Source: JBFMHD01 sp040752395 [NCBI: Candidatus Hydrogenedentota bacterium]
Lineage (GTDB): Bacteria > JBFMHD01
DNA: 5,613 bases
Direction of reading: 5' to 3'
Assembly: GCA_040752395.1 (NCBI GenBank)
Contig: JBFMHD010000181.1
Span: 1 to 5,613, forward strand
The position numbers were made by a program, and so were the translations under genes. Positions 1-5,559 of the stretch are shown one piece after another (position 1 is the first letter of the stretch; each line of letters starts with the position of its first letter). Under the pieces are notes generated by a model, which saw only the letters and a program-made list of their open reading frames with translations, was not told the origin of the DNA and made no database searches.

Positions 1-278
1 TGCTGATATATTTTATTAAATGGATCTTTATCAAAGTAGTTTAAATCACGTGCTATATAAAAAATGCTCTGAACTTCAGCAGCAGATGCTTTAGAAATAA
101 ATAAAAAATTTGATTGTCTTGAGAAGTCTTCTGGTATATTAGACATTATTGAAACCTCAGCTCGTAAACCTTGATCTTTTCTGAACTTTTCACTATTATT
201 TATAGTTTCATAAATCAATTTCACAAGAATTCTTGCCTCTTTCCAGCAATCTAAATCTTCAAACCTCTTTATTCTCAT
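1..278 (-). CDS. Four-helix-bundle protein (23S rRNA intervening-sequence type), 3' end outside window
   Basis: The first 92 codons are open from an ATG at 276-278 to the window edge. The start reads MRIKRFEDLDCWKEAR, a typical opening of the four-helix-bundle family first found inside 23S rRNA intervening sequences, and residues of the type SIMSNI..DFSRQSN and ISKASAAEVQS match its later helices. The molecular function of the family is unknown. GAGG at 285-288 lies 6 nt before the ATG, and the gene starts 36 nt after the stop of the large redox gene. Compared with remembered relatives, about five residues seem missing after RKDQGL and about five after RQSN, and the usual AEG tripeptide reads PED. 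It may therefore be a diverged or decaying copy, although no stop or frameshift is visible. It is not inside an rRNA gene here. Confidence 0.85.
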   Translation of the reverse strand, partial: MRIKRFEDLDCWKEARILVKLIYETINNSEKFRKDQGLRAEVSIMSNIPEDFSRQSNFLFISKASAAEVQSIFYIARDLNYFDKDPFNKIYQ

Positions 279-302
279 TCCTTACCTCGCTCCTTCTTTC
301 TT

Positions 303-332
303 AACGCAAGAACGCTATAACGTCATTAACGC
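303..332 (+). repeat. Degenerate AACG-octamer array at the 3' end of the HdrA-like gene
   Basis: AACG cores occur at 303, 311 and 319, exactly 8 bp apart, and again at 328, one base out of register. The units AACGCAAG and AACGCTAT resemble the AACGCAAN array at 1141-1172 but lie in the opposite orientation. The TAG stop of the large gene (315-317) falls inside the array, so the last few residues (LMTL) are probably repeat-derived. The degeneracy makes this a moderate call. Confidence 0.5.
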
Positions 333-3300
333 GGCTTCAACAACTGCGGACAGCTGTTCCAGCTTGAAATTTCTGACAAATATTCCGCGTTTCGGGCAGG
401 TTGCCATACAGTTGCCGCAACCATGACATAATTTTATATCCACCTCAACAGTCTTTTTGACAAGGCCTTCTCTCATGTATTCTATCAACGTGATAGCTTT
501 ATACGGGCAGGGATCAATACAGTATGCGCAGCCATCACAATTAGCATCTATGACTTCAGAGATTCTTGGTTCTATTTCCATTTTGTCTTTGGATAAAATA
601 ACTCCGGCACGTGTTGCAGCAGCCATTGCCTGCAGAATTGTTTCAGGAACGTTTTTCGGACCGTGTGCGGTACCGCAGACAAACACTCCCTCAGTTGCAA
701 AATCAACGGGTCGTAACTTCATATGAGCTTCAAGAAAAAAGTTGTCGGCATTAAGCGGTACTTTTAATTTCTGGGCTATATCATTGTTGGTTTCATTGGC
801 TTCAATAGCTGATGATAATACAACAAGGTCAGTTGGTAAATCAAGTGTGGTATTGAGTATTATATCCTTTACCGACACGTTCAAGGTATCGCCATTAATG
901 TTAACACCTGGTTTCTCTCCATCAAACCTTACGAATATAATGCCTGACTCTCTTGCTTTTCTGTAAAGTTTTTCATAAAAACCATAAGTTCTGATATCTT
1001 TATGCAGGATATAAACATTTATATCAGGACTGATTTCCTTTAATTTTAATGCGTTCTTTATTGCGGTAGAACAGCAGACGCGGCTACAGTATTCTCGTGG
1101 TGCTTCGCGCGAACCCACACATTGAATCATAACTACGGTATTTGCGTTGTTGCGTTGTTGCGTTATTGCGTTGTTTGATAATTTTTCTTCGAGTTCCATC
1201 TGCGTTATAATATTTTTGTTTTGACCGTAGAGATATTCAGTTGGTTTATATTCTTTAGCACCTGTTGCAACGATTATAACGCCGTGACTGATCTTCTTTT
1301 CACCATCTGGAGTTTTGAGAGTCGTTTCAAATTTCGGTATACTGCCTTGTATGGCAGATACTTCGGAATTAAGATAAACGGATATAAGCTTGTTGCTTTT
1401 TACTTTGGAGATAACATCGTTCAATTTATTTACGATATCTCCATCAGCGCTGTAATGAATCTTTTTAGTCAGACCGCCGAGTTCACCGGTTTTTTCAACA
1501 AGATGCACGGAAAACCCGCTCCCTGCAAGTTCGAGTCCAGCGGTCATACCCGCTATGCCGCCGCCTATTACAAGCGCAGATTTTGTGATCTCAACAAACT
1601 GTGGATATAAACTATCATTAAACTTGACTTTGGTAACAGCCATTCTTATAAGGTCTTTAGCTTTTTCAGTGGCTAAATTCGGCTGATGCATATGTACCCA
1701 CGAACACTGGTCTCTAATATTAGCCATCTCAAAAAGATAGGGATTTAATCCTGCGGATTTTAAGGTATCCATAAAGAGCGGTTCGTGTGTTCTCGGTGTG
1801 CAGGAAGCTACCACCACGCGGTTTAAACCTTTTTCTATAATAACGTTTTTTATTTTTTCGCAGGTATCAGCTGAACAGGTGTATAGATTATTCTCGCAAT
1901 AGACAACGTTCGGCAGAGTTTTAGCGTATTCAACAGTCTCAGGAACGTTTACCACGCTGGCGATGTTTGTACCACAGTGACAGATAAATACACCGACTTT
2001 TGGTTCCTCTTTGCTCACATCTCTTTCAGGTGGGTATTCTTTTTGGGTTAAAAGCTGGCCTCGTACGTCACTTAACAGACTTAAGCACTTTGAAACAGCA
2101 GCATCTGATTCCATAACAGTCTCAGGTATATCTTTAGGTCCTGTTGAGACACCGGCTACGAAAACGCCATCGATATTGGTCTTGACCGGATTCAGAGGGT
2201 CAGTATCAATAAACCCGTCATCATTTTCTTTAAGATTGAGTAAACTAGCTAACATTTTTGTAGGTCCTGAATATATGCCGACGCAAAGCACAACAAGGTC
2301 AAACTCTTCTTCAATCACTTCTGCTTCTTTACCTATATATTGAAGTTTAAGGTTTTTTGTGCTTGGGATCTGCTTTAGCGTTGAAGGGCTTGCTTTAATA
2401 TAGCGAATACCTTGTTTCTTTGCTCTTTCATAATATAATTCATAACCTTTGCCGAAGGCGCGTATGTCTCTATAAAAGATAGTGCATTCAAGGTCATGTT
2501 TGTGTTCTTTGGCAATGACTGCTTCTTTTGTTGCGTACATACAGCATACCGAAGAACAATACATTCTTTCAGTATCTCTTGATCCTACGCATTGTATGAA
2601 TGCTACTTTTTTAGGTTCGGTTTTATCATAAGGACGTAGTATATGACCTGCAAAAGGACCGGAAGCTGAAAGTATTCTTTCAAACTCAAGCGAGGTAATA
2701 ACGTTCGGATACCTGCGGTATCCGAATTCACCAGCGGCTTCGGGATTAAATACTTCATAGCCAGGTGTTAGTATAACAGCACCGACAGAAAGCTCGCTTG
2801 TTTTATCCTGGTCATCATAATTGATAGCTTCAGCCTGGCATACCATTTTACAAATTCCGCAGTCATCATAGTTAAGGTGGATGCAGGCGTTTTTATCAAT
2901 CACTGGTTTATTGGGCACCATCTGCGGATACATAAGATAAATAGATGAACGACTGTCAATCCCCTGATTAAAATCGTTGGGGATAGGTTTTGGTTTTCGA
3001 TTGCTTGAAGATGTAGAGATAGTTTTACCTGTTGGGCAGATAAAATCACAGGCTCTGCAGACCCAGCATTCCTCACTGTTTTTACTGAACGGTGTTTCAA
3101 CTTTTCTTCGAGGGCCGCGGCCGATAAAACCGAGTGCTTTTCGTCCCATTCGTTCTTCGCACATCCTCACGCATAATCCACAGTAAACACAATCTTCATT
3201 CTTCTTTTTTATTCTGACCTCTTTCACGCCTAAATCAGAGGCTATCTTTTGTATAATTGGTGAATCTGGACATCTGGCGAGCAATAATTCTGCAATTATT

Positions 3301-3560
3301 TTTCTTGCATTTTTTACCCGGTCAGTATCGGTTTGGATAGACAGGCCATTTAACGCGGGGTAAGAGCAGGAAGCCTGAAGCGATGGGGCTCTGCCTTGCT
3401 GATGCACCTCAACAAGACATAGTCTGCAAGCGCCATAAGGCACAAGCGCTTTATGATGGCATAAGGTCGGGACTTTTAATCCCATCATTTCAATGCATTG
3501 AAGCAGCGTTTTATCTTCAGGGAACTCTTTTTTTATACCGTTGATAGTTAATTCAACCAC
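315..3560 (-). CDS. NuoG-like/HdrA-like fusion iron-sulfur flavoprotein (1081 aa)
   Basis: This is a soluble multi-cofactor electron-transfer subunit. Residues 1-80 form a [2Fe-2S] ferredoxin domain (C34, C45, C48, C65). Residues 120-180 hold two [4Fe-4S] motifs (C124/127/130/134 and C165/168/171/175). A further ferredoxin-like motif is C226/C234/C237/C241. An HdrA-type module follows at about 215-495, with its cluster motif CVGSRD...YCSSVCC (C324, C335, C339, C340) but no GxGxxG. The HdrA N-terminal domain starts at CHCG (C527, C529). A complete FAD Rossmann motif lies at G666/G668/G671 with E689, a second CVGSR...CC motif at C814-C830, and two C-terminal [4Fe-4S] motifs at C1008-C1018 and C1045-C1055. 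The GTG start is preceded by AGGAGAG. HdrA proteins bifurcate or confurcate electrons with Hdr, hydrogenase or dehydrogenase partners; the partner here is not visible. Residues 797-807 are encoded by a repeat array. Confidence 0.94.
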   Translation of the reverse strand: MVELTINGIKKEFPEDKTLLQCIEMMGLKVPTLCHHKALVPYGACRLCLVEVHQQGRAPSLQASCSYPALNGLSIQTDTDRVKNARKIIAELLLARCPDSPIIQKIASDLGVKEVRIKKKNEDCVYCGLCVRMCEERMGRKALGFIGRGPRRKVETPFSKNSEECWVCRACDFICPTGKTISTSSSNRKPKPIPNDFNQGIDSRSSIYLMYPQMVPNKPVIDKNACIHLNYDDCGICKMVCQAEAINYDDQDKTSELSVGAVILTPGYEVFNPEAAGEFGYRRYPNVITSLEFERILSASGPFAGHILRPYDKTEPKKVAFIQCVGSRDTERMYCSSVCCMYATKEAVIAKEHKHDLECTIFYRDIRAFGKGYELYYERAKKQGIRYIKASPSTLKQIPSTKNLKLQYIGKEAEVIEEEFDLVVLCVGIYSGPTKMLASLLNLKENDDGFIDTDPLNPVKTNIDGVFVAGVSTGPKDIPETVMESDAAVSKCLSLLSDVRGQLLTQKEYPPERDVSKEEPKVGVFICHCGTNIASVVNVPETVEYAKTLPNVVYCENNLYTCSADTCEKIKNVIIEKGLNRVVVASCTPRTHEPLFMDTLKSAGLNPYLFEMANIRDQCSWVHMHQPNLATEKAKDLIRMAVTKVKFNDSLYPQFVEITKSALVIGGGIAGMTAGLELAGSGFSVHLVEKTGELGGLTKKIHYSADGDIVNKLNDVISKVKSNKLISVYLNSEVSAIQGSIPKFETTLKTPDGEKKISHGVIIVATGAKEYKPTEYLYGQNKNIITQMELEEKLSNNAITQQRNNANTVVMIQCVGSREAPREYCSRVCCSTAIKNALKLKEISPDINVYILHKDIRTYGFYEKLYRKARESGIIFVRFDGEKPGVNINGDTLNVSVKDIILNTTLDLPTDLVVLSSAIEANETNNDIAQKLKVPLNADNFFLEAHMKLRPVDFATEGVFVCGTAHGPKNVPETILQAMAAATRAGVILSKDKMEIEPRISEVIDANCDGCAYCIDPCPYKAITLIEYMREGLVKKTVEVDIKLCHGCGNCMATCPKRGIFVRNFKLEQLSAVVEAALMTL
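1141..1172 (-). repeat. Octamer array AACGCAAN x4 inside the HdrA-like gene
   Basis: On the minus strand four units run without spacers: AACGCAAT, AACGCAAC, AACGCAAC and AACGCAAA. They encode the Asn/Gln-rich stretch N797-N807 between LEEKLSN and TVVMIQCVGSR, where relatives have a short loop. The 8-bp period is not a codon multiple, so each unit is read in a different frame, which is why the peptide is not itself periodic. Taking out three units (24 bp) would leave a normal-looking short loop in frame. This supports a tolerated insertion or expansion in a surface loop. Confidence 0.88.
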
Positions 3561-3564
3561 AAAG

Positions 3565-3571
3565 CTCTCCT
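3565..3571 (-). promoter_or_regulatory. Shine-Dalgarno of the HdrA-like gene, fixing a GTG start
   Basis: AGGAGAG on the minus strand ends 4 nt before the GTG at 3558-3560 (6 nt counting from AGGAG). The following codons give VELTINGIK, the expected first strand of a [2Fe-2S] domain. This supports GTG rather than a later ATG as start. Confidence 0.8.
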
Positions 3572-3577
3572 AAATAG

Positions 3578-3601
3578 GCACAGAGGCACAGAGGCACAAA
3601 G
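3578..3601 (+). repeat. GCACARAG octamer array A (3 units)
   Basis: On the plus strand the units are GCACAGAG, GCACAGAG and GCACAAAG. This is the only array of its family oriented against the genes. It lies just upstream of the Shine-Dalgarno of the HdrA-like gene and directly abuts the stop codon of the four-helix-bundle relic (3602-3604). With array B (3805-3836) it forms a long imperfect inverted repeat around that relic. Confidence 0.9.
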
Positions 3602-3803
3602 TTAAGAACCTCTTATTTTCTTTATTAAACTACCGAGCATACGTTCAATCTCACGAGATAATTCATAAATTTTTTCAAAAGTTTCTTTGTTAATATAATT
3701 TAAATCAAAAGCAATTTCTATTTGGGTCTGCATTTCATAAATTGAACTTTGAGACATTACTCATTGATTTTTGCCAGACTATCAAATCTTTATAAGTTTT
3801 CAT
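3602..3803 (-). pseudogene. Four-helix-bundle protein relic with internal deletion
   Basis: Both ends of a four-helix-bundle gene are recognisable on the minus strand in different frames. From an ATG at 3801-3803 the sequence reads MKTYKDLIVWQKSM, the canonical opening of the family, then stops after about nine further residues. From about 3757 to the TAA at 3602-3604 a second frame reads 51 residues with SSIYEMQTQIEIAFDLNYI, then FEKIYELSREIERML, the canonical last two helices. Roughly 55 residues in the middle, including the usual SNIAEG segment, are absent and the halves are out of frame by one base. The first 14 bases overlap the end of the HATPase reading frame. Octamer arrays flank it in inverted orientation. 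The relic is dead as a protein and accounts for most of the gap between the two flanking genes. Confidence 0.87.
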
Positions 3804-4278
3804 ACTCTGTGCCTTTGCCACTTTGTGCCTTTGTGCCTTGTTTAATCACATAATCAAAACTCAAATTCACCTCGGGATGGGTTGCTCTCAATACTTTCAG
3901 AGTTTTCTCTATATCTCCGATGGGTTTCATATCGATATGATCCATCTTAAACGTTGCAATAACCTTTGTGCCTCTGTGCCTCTGTGCCTCTGTGCCTTCC
4001 CCTGTACAACTTTCAATCTTCATTTCGCCTTCTGCTTCCCTGCACGCCTGAGAAAGCATCGATAACCCGAGTCCAAACTTCTTCCCTTGTTTCGTTGTAT
4101 AAAACGGATTTGCTGCATTTTCTAAAGATTCTTTATCCATACCTTTGCCGTTATCCTCAATTTCAAGTGTCAGAAAATCATCTTTCTTGTTTTCTATCAT
4201 TCTAATATCGATCCTGCTTGCGCCTGCTCTTAAAGAGTTTTCTACGATATCCATAATATGTAACGATAAATCTTCCAT
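3790..4278 (-). CDS. Stand-alone HATPase_c ATP-binding protein with repeat-modified C-terminus (162 aa)
   Basis: This is a GHKL-fold ATP-binding protein without histidine-kinase H-box, membrane or sensor segments, so it is more like an anti-sigma or serine-kinase type regulator than a sensor kinase. The N-box is at N14 in DIVENSLRAGA, the G1 box is D42-N-G44-K-G46-M, PFYTTK lies at 58-63, the G2 box is G69-L-G71-L, and the G3 box falls around G95-T104. The G3 box is split by an eight-residue insertion (about 97-104, EAQRHRGT) encoded by octamer array C. The segment HIDMKPIGDIEKT matches genes of this type found beside hydrogenase and NADH-dehydrogenase-like clusters. After about residue 146 the tail KQGTKAQSGKGTEYENL comes from octamer array B and the start of the four-helix-bundle relic, so the native C-terminus appears lost. 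The ATG directly follows the PHP stop codon. Substrate and partner are unknown. Confidence 0.9.
   Translation of the reverse strand: MEDLSLHIMDIVENSLRAGASRIDIRMIENKKDDFLTLEIEDNGKGMDKESLENAANPFYTTKQGKKFGLGLSMLSQACREAEGEMKIESCTGEGTEAQRHRGTKVIATFKMDHIDMKPIGDIEKTLKVLRATHPEVNLSFDYVIKQGTKAQSGKGTEYENL
3805..3836 (-). repeat. GCACARAG octamer array B (4 units) forming the HATPase C-terminus
   Basis: Minus-strand units are GCACAAAG, GCACAAAG, TGGCAAAG (degenerate) and GCACAGAG. The array is followed by TATGAAAAC, the start of the four-helix-bundle relic. It is translated as part of the HATPase tail (KAQSGKGTE region) and is inverted with respect to array A at 3578-3601. Confidence 0.88.
3964..3995 (-). 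repeat. GCACARAG octamer array C (4 units) inside the HATPase gene
   Basis: Minus-strand units are three GCACAGAG followed by GCACAAAG. They encode the string GTEAQRHRGTK within the ATP-binding G3 box. The last unit supplies the GGC ACA AAG codons of the family's own GTK motif, so a native near-match to the unit may have seeded the array. Three extra units add 24 bp and keep the frame. Confidence 0.92.
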
Positions 4279-5339: not shown

Positions 5340-5363
5340 CTTTGTGCCTCTGTGTCTCTGTGC
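5340..5363 (-). repeat. GCACARAG octamer array D (3 units) between Shine-Dalgarno and start codon
   Basis: Minus-strand units are GCACAGAG, ACACAGAG and GCACAAAG, followed by TATG, the DRTGG start. The array is exactly 24 bp. Removing it would place AGGAGG 6 nt from the ATG, an ordinary spacing. Confidence 0.9.
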
Positions 5364-5366
5364 CTT

Positions 5367-5406: not shown

Positions 5407-5479
5407 TACAGGCTACAGGCTACGGACTACAGCCGGCTGGAGCCCGAAGCCCGGAGCCTGAAGTCCGGAGCCTGAAGCC
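5407..5479. repeat. GC-rich heptamer inverted array (7-bp units)
   Basis: The left half reads TACAGGC, TACAGGC, TACGGAC, TACAGCC on the plus strand. The right half reads AGCCCGA, AGCCCGG, AGCCTGA, AGTCCGG, AGCCTGA, AGCC. Read on the minus strand, the right half gives GGCTTCAGGCTCCGGACT, close to the left half's GGCTACAGGCTACGGACT, so the arms can pair imperfectly around GCCGGCTGG. It is much richer in GC than the surroundings. It could act as a hairpin between the upstream gene and the DRTGG gene, but there is no T-run typical of an intrinsic terminator. It resembles in style the short tandemly repeated heptamers known from cyanobacteria. Confidence 0.85.
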
Positions 5480-5504: not shown

Positions 5505-5520
5505 CGTTGTGCCTCTGTGC
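5505..5520 (-). repeat. GCACARAG octamer array E (2 units)
   Basis: Minus-strand units are GCACAGAG and GCACAACG, followed by TATGAAAAACTAAAG. That continuation resembles the sequence after arrays B and D, but the ATG here opens no gene (MKN followed by a stop). It lies in the gap behind the partial upstream gene. Confidence 0.75.
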
Positions 5521-5559
5521 CTCTTTCGTTATCTTTCTTTCCGTTATCTTGCATCTTGC

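Follow-up and report, generated by a model that had tools for sequence, protein, structure and literature searches.

A broken four-helix-bundle gene between inverted octamer arrays looks like the remnant of a very small mobile element

What is a fragment of a four-helix-bundle (4HB) gene, bracketed by inverted arrays of one octamer, doing between a HATPase and an HdrA gene? The question arises from a stretch of 5,613 nucleotides of a Candidatus Hydrogenedentota bacterium (contig JBFMHD010000181.1), called here the window. An earlier note on this DNA had proposed a small mobile cassette. In our view, what the window preserves is probably a dead copy from a class of mobile elements, all very small and each with one 4HB gene between inverted arrays of 7- or 8-mers. 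An intact copy would measure around 430–510 bp and carry an array of about 4–5 units, a gene of about 120 codons (family PF05635) and the same array inverted. The window copy would have inserted between the HATPase and HdrA genes, then lost around half of its gene, and would now be only a passive, MITE-like remnant. The features of the window are given in Table 1.

Table 1. Features of the window, with positions numbered from its first nucleotide
Feature	Positions	Strand	Remarks
Putative decayed array-4HB-array element	3576..3838	-	263 bp, between HATPase and HdrA genes
Array A, octamers downstream of the relic gene, inverted relative to array B	3576..3601	+	Sequence AGGCACAGAGGCACAGAGGCACAAAG
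Array B, octamers upstream of the relic gene	~3804..3838	-	First full octamer from 3805
N-terminal part of the disrupted 4HB gene	3756..3803	-	MKTYKDLIVWQKSMSN; alignable with the N-terminal end of L258
C-terminal part of the disrupted 4HB gene	3602..3757	-	PF05635 positions 65-105 of 106, E 2.1e-9
HATPase gene upstream of the element	3790..4278	-	PF02518, 1.1e-15
HdrA/NuoG-like gene downstream of the element	315..3560	-	L001 orthologue, 58% identity
Solo array of the window octamer, inside the HATPase gene	3963..3997	-	Repeat pattern
Solo array of the window octamer, upstream of the DRTGG gene	5340..5364	-	Repeat pattern
Solo array of the window octamer, two units	~5505..5524	-	Repeat pattern
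Second 4HB gene, cut by the window end	3..278	-	PF05635, 1.6e-16, 60.9 bits
Imperfect octamer array upstream of the second 4HB gene	~302..332	-	Unit like GCGTTNTT
Solo GCGTTRTT-like octamer array in the HdrA coding sequence	1142..1175	.	Repeat search

The layout described in the earlier note is accurate. The last base of array A (3601) abuts the stop codon of the ORF at 3602-3757 (minus strand), and a single base, T3804, separates the octamer of array B (3805) from the ATG (3803-3801). The arrays had been called complementary terminal repeats, and indeed the two arms pair with a score of 31, compared with a maximum of 24 in 1000 mononucleotide shuffles. The pattern GGCACARAGGCACARAG has nine matches in the window with up to two mismatches (six of them exact), for a chance expectation of 0.01. 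The gene is broken as had been thought: an N-terminal piece is followed by a frame break and then by the C-terminal part, which scores 38 bits with PF05635 and thus belongs to this family (curated cut-off 33.8). This part also matches PF22296 (bAvd), below the cut-off. Nearly half of the relic protein is missing, since its two pieces cover only positions ~16–30 and ~84–132 of the translation of an intact relative, L258, counted on a translation that begins 20 residues ahead of its own profile match. No clear target duplication was seen beside the element when the sequence was read by eye. Judged on its sequence, the window copy looks like a dead, decayed member of a small mobile-element class.

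The surrounding genes support the view that HATPase and HdrA were once adjacent. In L001, from a Bacteroidetes MAG (genome G001), the order is DRTGG-PHP-HATPase-HdrA and the gap between the last two genes is 143 nt long and free of octamers, hence the support for a former adjacency. This was the one relative of the window locus that a scan of genome contigs returned (58% identity), and a search with the HATPase protein among 118 genomes from the phylum of G001 gave two close orthologues (E <1e-40), in G001 and G103. The cassette had also been said to have replaced the tail of the HATPase. It did not: no HATPase domain was exchanged, and the L001 orthologue stops at around the matching point. 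The tail in the window is extended, its last ~16 residues being read from array B and the bases beyond.

The window holds further repeats. Its solo octamer arrays are probably leftovers of the window element's family. At the one inside the HATPase gene (3963-3997), the protein has around 8 residues more than in L001, as judged by eye, and L289 likewise does without them. The second 4HB gene of the window matches PF05635 only, and we found no relatives with its protein as a query. The array before it (303-332) resembles the array in the HdrA gene (1142-1175) with a score of 27, compared with 21 for the 99.9th percentile of shuffles, and its partner would fall outside the window. Where the array at 1142-1175 lies in the HdrA frame, the L001 orthologue has extra residues too, of a different sequence (by eye). 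Imperfect 7-mer arrays (TACAGGC; GGAGCCTGAAGCCC), with a unit unlike the window octamers, occupy positions 5407-5479, in the space that separates the DRTGG gene from the window end.

The earlier note had asked whether inverted arrays adjoin other 4HB genes, and they do. We scored the best local complementarity of the upstream and downstream flanks of each gene (arm score) and used a threshold of 24. Most of the 14 PF05635 genes of G001 adjoin short inverted 7- or 8-mer arrays, with a unit that differs at most genes, and ten of them reach the threshold. The same holds for 32 of the 44 4HB genes of G001 and its relatives, compared with one of the 29 genes of a control family, the ParE toxins (from 28 of these genomes; 29 of 30 loci were used, one flank being too short). 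Periodicity at a lag of 7 or 8 was found at 20 of the 44 4HB genes and at none of the 29 ParE genes. The larger set included 120 4HB genes, 104 from G001 and relatives and 16 from cyanobacterial plasmids (16 of 23 places, once duplicates, same-site copies and fragments had been dropped); 86 of them reach the threshold, whereas only 2.9% of 14,280 mismatched pairs of upstream and downstream flanks do so. The genomes other than G001 are taken to be Bacteroidota from the phylum draw. Two further genomes, G182 and G246, gave 12 of 21 further 4HB genes at or above the threshold (21 of the 30 places among the matches listed were used), compared with 4.3% of mismatched pairs.

The 34 low scorers of the larger set are a mixed group. 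Read by eye, many do carry arrays, either to one side of the gene or to both, or an array that overlaps its stop codon. In others, L033 among them, no arrays can be made out, and one locus, L049/L070, has long arrays in direct rather than inverted orientation; both observations count against the element model. None of the 20 4HB loci examined among the low scorers matched an Rfam family (rRNA, for instance) at its gathering score. Relatives retrieved with XCC0516 included 11 viral-contig loci: arrays are clear in five (L246, L249, L251, L252 and L254), two score 19-20, and the near-identical L244, L245, L248 and L253 have only weak arrays. One query of phage records returned no 4HB match.

Two of the genomic settings deserve a mention of their own. 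The 4HB gene of L049 and L050, both in cyanobacterial plasmids, lies between cas6 and cas4 of a CRISPR-Cas operon, and in L050 a cas1 annotated as type I-D comes after them. In G016 (C2:45151-48915, L153), three 4HB genes spaced by around 1.7 kb are found within 4 kb, and at each of them one or more array rows have an inverted partner.

Three exact copies of the window octamer GGCACARA in tandem were found in two of 395 genomes from the phylum of G001 and in nine viral-contig stretches. These arrays are mostly solo, and two of them (L104 and L105) are part of gene-less hairpins. Among the viral contigs we found no intact 4HB gene with GGCACARA arrays, in nine loci by profile and in three by eye. 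One of these contigs (L102, 8533-8706) contains a composite repeat in which octamer arrays alternate with GGCAGAAGGCAGAAGGGATAA-like stretches. In G246, one of the two genomes with the octamer, twelve perfect GGCACAGA units stand in a row (L110), around 100 kb from the nearest of the at least 15 4HB matches listed for this genome.

G246 also carries L258, an intact 4HB gene between octamers of the window type. We compared the C-terminal piece of the relic with 138 4HB proteins, i.e., the 120 above and 18 of G182 and G246, two genomes chosen because they hold the octamer. The highest scores were those of L258 (146), L262 (125), L259 (111) and L271 (110), followed by 100 for the next protein. 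All four are from G182 or G246, and the remaining 14 proteins of these genomes rank lower. By eye, octamers of the CTCTGTGCC / CTCTGTCA / CTCTGTAA type stand in the flanks of all four, L271 showing them least clearly. Array B of the window is complementary to the downstream array of L258 with a score of 40 (maximum of 500 shuffles: 27), and the outer flanks of the two elements are unrelated. The window has solo octamer arrays at other places too, as do other genomes and contigs, which might suggest that octamer microsatellites flank a decaying gene by chance. Such a coincidence is scarcely credible: it is contradicted by the ParE control, by the mismatched flanks, by these nearest relatives of the relic and by the co-variation of arrays and protein clades described below.

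Empty sites had been proposed as a further check, and they exist: the HATPase-HdrA gap of the distant L001 is one, and closer comparisons come from plasmids of cyanobacteria, mostly Nostocales, where eight sites are known with and without an element. Three of them (sites 1, 4 and 6) are clean. Site 1 is filled in L055 and L067, empty in L058 and L059, whose flanks are ~97% identical, and occupied by a truncated element in L060; GTAAT, single in the empty site, flanks the insertion at both ends in the filled one. At site 4 (filled in L066 and L099, empty in L097, L096 and L095), TTCTA is duplicated in L099, with one G fewer. At site 6 (filled in L073/L095, empty in L066 and in the Nostoc plasmid W08), ATG is duplicated and the insertion extends around 36 nt past the downstream array, so the array edge is not always the end of the element. 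The target lies at a stop codon in these three sites, and the empty versions have no array there.

The remaining five sites are less simple. Site 2 is filled in L053 and L068, lacks the element in L061 and L062, which have other junction bases, and holds a gene-less inverted-array element in L063. Site 3 is filled in L048 and empty in L064; the 4HB element of L048, in a Nostoc plasmid, lies between ribonucleotide reductase genes, on the strand opposite to both. Site 5 (filled in L065, empty in L098, L093 and L094) shows no clear duplication. Site 7 is filled in L089, lacks the element in L046 and L047 and has another gene-less element in W08, and site 8 is filled in L074 and empty in W08. We rejected L046 and L047 as cases of movement of the element alone, as the two have in common a 3.6-kb segment that carries an integrase. 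A target duplication was thus found at three of the eight sites, of 5 bp (sites 1 and 4) or 3 bp (site 6); elsewhere the junction differs or there is no clear duplication.

L055, L065 and L066 are related elements at unrelated places. The DNA of L055 is ~83% and 78% like that of the other two, and the similarity sets in and breaks off approximately where the arrays have their outer limits. Together with the filled and empty sites, this edge-bounded similarity shows that the gene and its arrays travel together and that the arrays are not the target sequence at the clean sites. Gene and arrays are present as one insertion unit in gaps between genes. The idea of a small mobile cassette is therefore supported and can be generalised, given the inverted arrays at 86 of the 120 genes and the eight sites found both filled and empty.

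These observations bear on two explanations in which the arrays are not the ends of an element. Arrays might be pre-existing landing sites, i.e., repeat hairpins into whose loops 4HB genes insert. In its favour, gene-less hairpins do exist, and at sites 2 and 7 the element is not the same in every plasmid. Yet the empty sites 1, 4 and 6, with no array at the target, contradict this explanation, and the array unit goes with the protein clade across different sites; we consider it very unlikely. Only slightly less improbable, in our opinion, is that the 4HB protein is an autoregulator that binds the arrays, or has some other host function, the arrays being operators or RNA-processing hairpins and movement being incidental. 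The upstream array lies directly before the start codon, long RNA stems are predicted (at 3560-3850 of the window, z -4.46, and in L066, z -2.89), and the available text of a study of Beggiatoaceae proposes a regulatory role for such repeats (PMC4679880). However, an inverted array also follows the stop codon, and the filled and empty sites, with the three related elements ending at the array edges, indicate that arrays and gene move as a unit.

The repeat unit and its length go with the protein clade. A period between 5 and 11 could be called in 86 of the 120 elements: it is seven in 65, eight in 19, six in one and nine in one. The earlier note had expected octamers of the type GCACARAG to mark the ends of such elements in general; arrays do mark them, but the fixed octamer does not, as the unit varies by clade and 7-mers are commoner (65 vs 19). 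Among pairs of elements at different sites with protein identity of at least 50%, 21% of 162 share arms, compared with a mean of 2.3% and at most 8.0% in permutations (p 0.0005); the test was confined to elements whose arms are clear (86 of the 120), and pairs with similar outer flanks were set aside. The period equals that of the nearest protein in a fraction of 0.90 vs 0.65 (79 elements, p 0.0002). One protein clade shows this across hosts: an AGAAGTC-like unit is found in four of its five members, from cyanobacterial plasmids (L078 and L082) and from relatives of G001 (L018 and L187), and the fifth (L034) is without it. Array similarity fades below ~50% protein identity, and since arrays differ freely below this value, a first test on all pairs of 44 loci was not significant (Mantel p 0.66).

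Gene-less copies complicate the picture. Besides the truncated copy L060, there are L063 and many pairs in W08. Contigs for the array survey were chosen partly for holding 4HB genes, and in W08 an inverted partner scoring at least 30 was found for 30 of 53 array rows, four at its two 4HB genes and 26 elsewhere. The gene-less pairs of W08 span ~60–220 bp, and two of them (160534-160734 and 265794-266002) are similar to the unit found in the 4HB element at 162802-163218. Of the array rows in G035 and G016 (399.5 kb, with contigs chosen in the same way), five have an inverted partner scoring at least 26, and every one of these lies at a 4HB gene; none of the remaining 20 exceeds 23. The strong rows belong to four of the five 4HB genes there. 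The gene-less pairs of W08 and the mostly solo octamers of viral contigs count against the element model.

The gene-less copies would fit an alternative: a MITE-like element, with the arrays as its ends, would be moved in trans by an unrelated transposase or reverse transcriptase, the 4HB protein only regulating, stabilising or riding along. The many gene-less inverted-array copies of W08 and the one at site 2 (L063) are in line with it, the duplications of 3-5 bp resemble ordinary transposition, and we know of no catalytic (nuclease) motif in PF05635, which also counts against the element model. Still, at sites that are unrelated, unit and period keep to the 4HB clade, which a passenger need not show, and the AGAAGTC-like unit is shared by four of five clade members in plasmids and in relatives of G001. 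The gene is also under purifying selection in the pairs where this could be measured: dN/dS is 0.10-0.16 in four unsaturated pairs of ten computed (of 11 pairs, six are saturated at synonymous sites and one gave no result), so the 4HB protein is kept by selection in these pairs. On balance, we find movement in trans with an accessory 4HB protein rather unlikely, though it deserves to be taken seriously.

If the 4HB protein takes part in mobility, its structure suggests how it may do so. Five chains are present in each of two solved structures, 2gsc (XCC0516) and 2rld, and five four-helix bundles are named in the title of the paper on 2gsc (Lin et al. 2006), as cited in PMC10053308. The arrays have a median length of 4.5 units upstream (76 arrays past the minimum score, interquartile range 3.9-5.0) and 4.1 units downstream (56 arrays). 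A pentameric 4HB protein may recognise the array: a five-membered ring would read the two arrays, each of ~5 units, as the terminal inverted repeats of the element, with roughly one repeat unit per subunit, and would bring the two ends together. One subunit per unit and a ring at each end would be the simplest reading. A test of unit order in 29 elements weakly favours base-by-base pairing of the hairpin (p 0.011), which is more than array recognition alone needs and counts weakly against the element model. A reverse transcriptase acting in trans might carry out the cutting and joining, or the copying, and so might a nuclease of the host. The former is an option because the available text of PMC10053308 reports that Avd of diversity-generating retroelements, a four-helix bundle likened to PF05635, is essential for retrohoming.

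The only ORF seen in the elements is the 4HB gene. A wider reading, which we advance tentatively and would not yet favour, is that the 4HB protein itself is the mobility protein of widespread autonomous elements of ~430–510 bp. The intervening sequences (IVS) of 23S rRNA would be copies landed in rRNA genes, the 7- and 8-mer arrays scattered in cyanobacteria, Xanthomonas and others would be gene-less remnants, and a pentameric ring would read the ~5-unit array, the pairing re-evolving in each clade. If this is true, these elements, with a single gene of ~120 codons, would be among the smallest autonomous mobile elements. It would account for the role of the abundant four-helix-bundle (S23) genes, for the origin of the IVS and for the 7- and 8-mer arrays scattered over many bacterial genomes. 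Nature would then also offer a rapidly evolving code that links a small protein which forms rings to a short repeat in DNA.

Known systems share parts of this design. RAYT/REPIN consist of a small gene flanked by an inverted short sequence that is also dispersed as gene-less copies, and the elements described here likewise have one small gene, inverted short flanks and dispersed gene-less copies. However, the RAYT is a Y1 HUH transposase acting on palindromic REPs, whereas our elements encode a four-helix bundle and end in tandem 7- or 8-mer arrays; the relic and the second 4HB gene of the window match PF05635, not a Y1 (HUH) transposase. The elements resemble MITEs and insertion sequences in their terminal inverted repeats, in the target duplications of 3-5 bp at some sites and in their gene-less derivatives, but differ by having no known transposase gene and by ends made of tandem arrays whose unit changes from clade to clade. 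Unlike diversity-generating retroelements, they have a single ORF, and inside them we saw neither a reverse transcriptase nor a template or variable repeat; a scan of six ORFs of the window likewise gave no reverse transcriptase.

The STRR of cyanobacteria are heptamer arrays. Others are reported in the available texts of two studies: GGGAATC in Xanthomonas and GGGGAYT in Nostoc, with 70 and 75 convergent inverted pairs in two Xanthomonas genomes (PMC4692102), and TAACTGA in Beggiatoaceae and others (PMC4679880). They resemble the arrays described here in being 7-mers and mostly intergenic, and the inverted pairs of Xanthomonas resemble our gene-less pairs. According to the same texts, the repeats of Xanthomonas and Nostoc are generally not associated with mobile elements (PMC4692102), and a repeat-binding protein acting as a mobile element is named as one possibility for Beggiatoaceae (PMC4679880). 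The terms "23S" and "S23" are absent from the main texts of both papers, which describe heptamer arrays without a 4HB protein.

The closest counterpart is the 23S rRNA IVS of Coxiella burnetii. The available text of PMC4990558 describes an IVS of 428 nt with an S23/PF05635 ORF, and terminal inverted repeats that form a 28-bp stem. Ahead of the ORF, and close to it, stand two to three GACAGAT heptamers in tandem plus one degenerate unit, in numbers that vary between strains. The window element shares with it the PF05635 protein, the repeats before the ORF and the terminal inverted repeats. The two differ in that IVS lie inside 23S rRNA genes and are cut out by RNase III, whereas the window element lies between protein genes, in the HATPase-HdrA gap; the same text does not describe the IVS stem as an inverted heptamer array and reports no copies outside rRNA (PMC4990558). 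It also holds that the S23 protein of Coxiella is probably not expressed and its ORF decaying (PMC4990558), which counts against the element model. In the open-access literature we found no paper describing 4HB genes outside rRNA between inverted arrays, and for this reason we rate the array-4HB-array class as new, with a reservation regarding the IVS. The earlier note had called a free-standing element a new kind; this stands in that we found no such element described, but the class is probably not only free-standing, the IVS of Coxiella having the same published parts. This comparison suggests a common class for the window element and the Coxiella IVS, and the 23S rRNA IVS are probably members of the array-4HB-array class.
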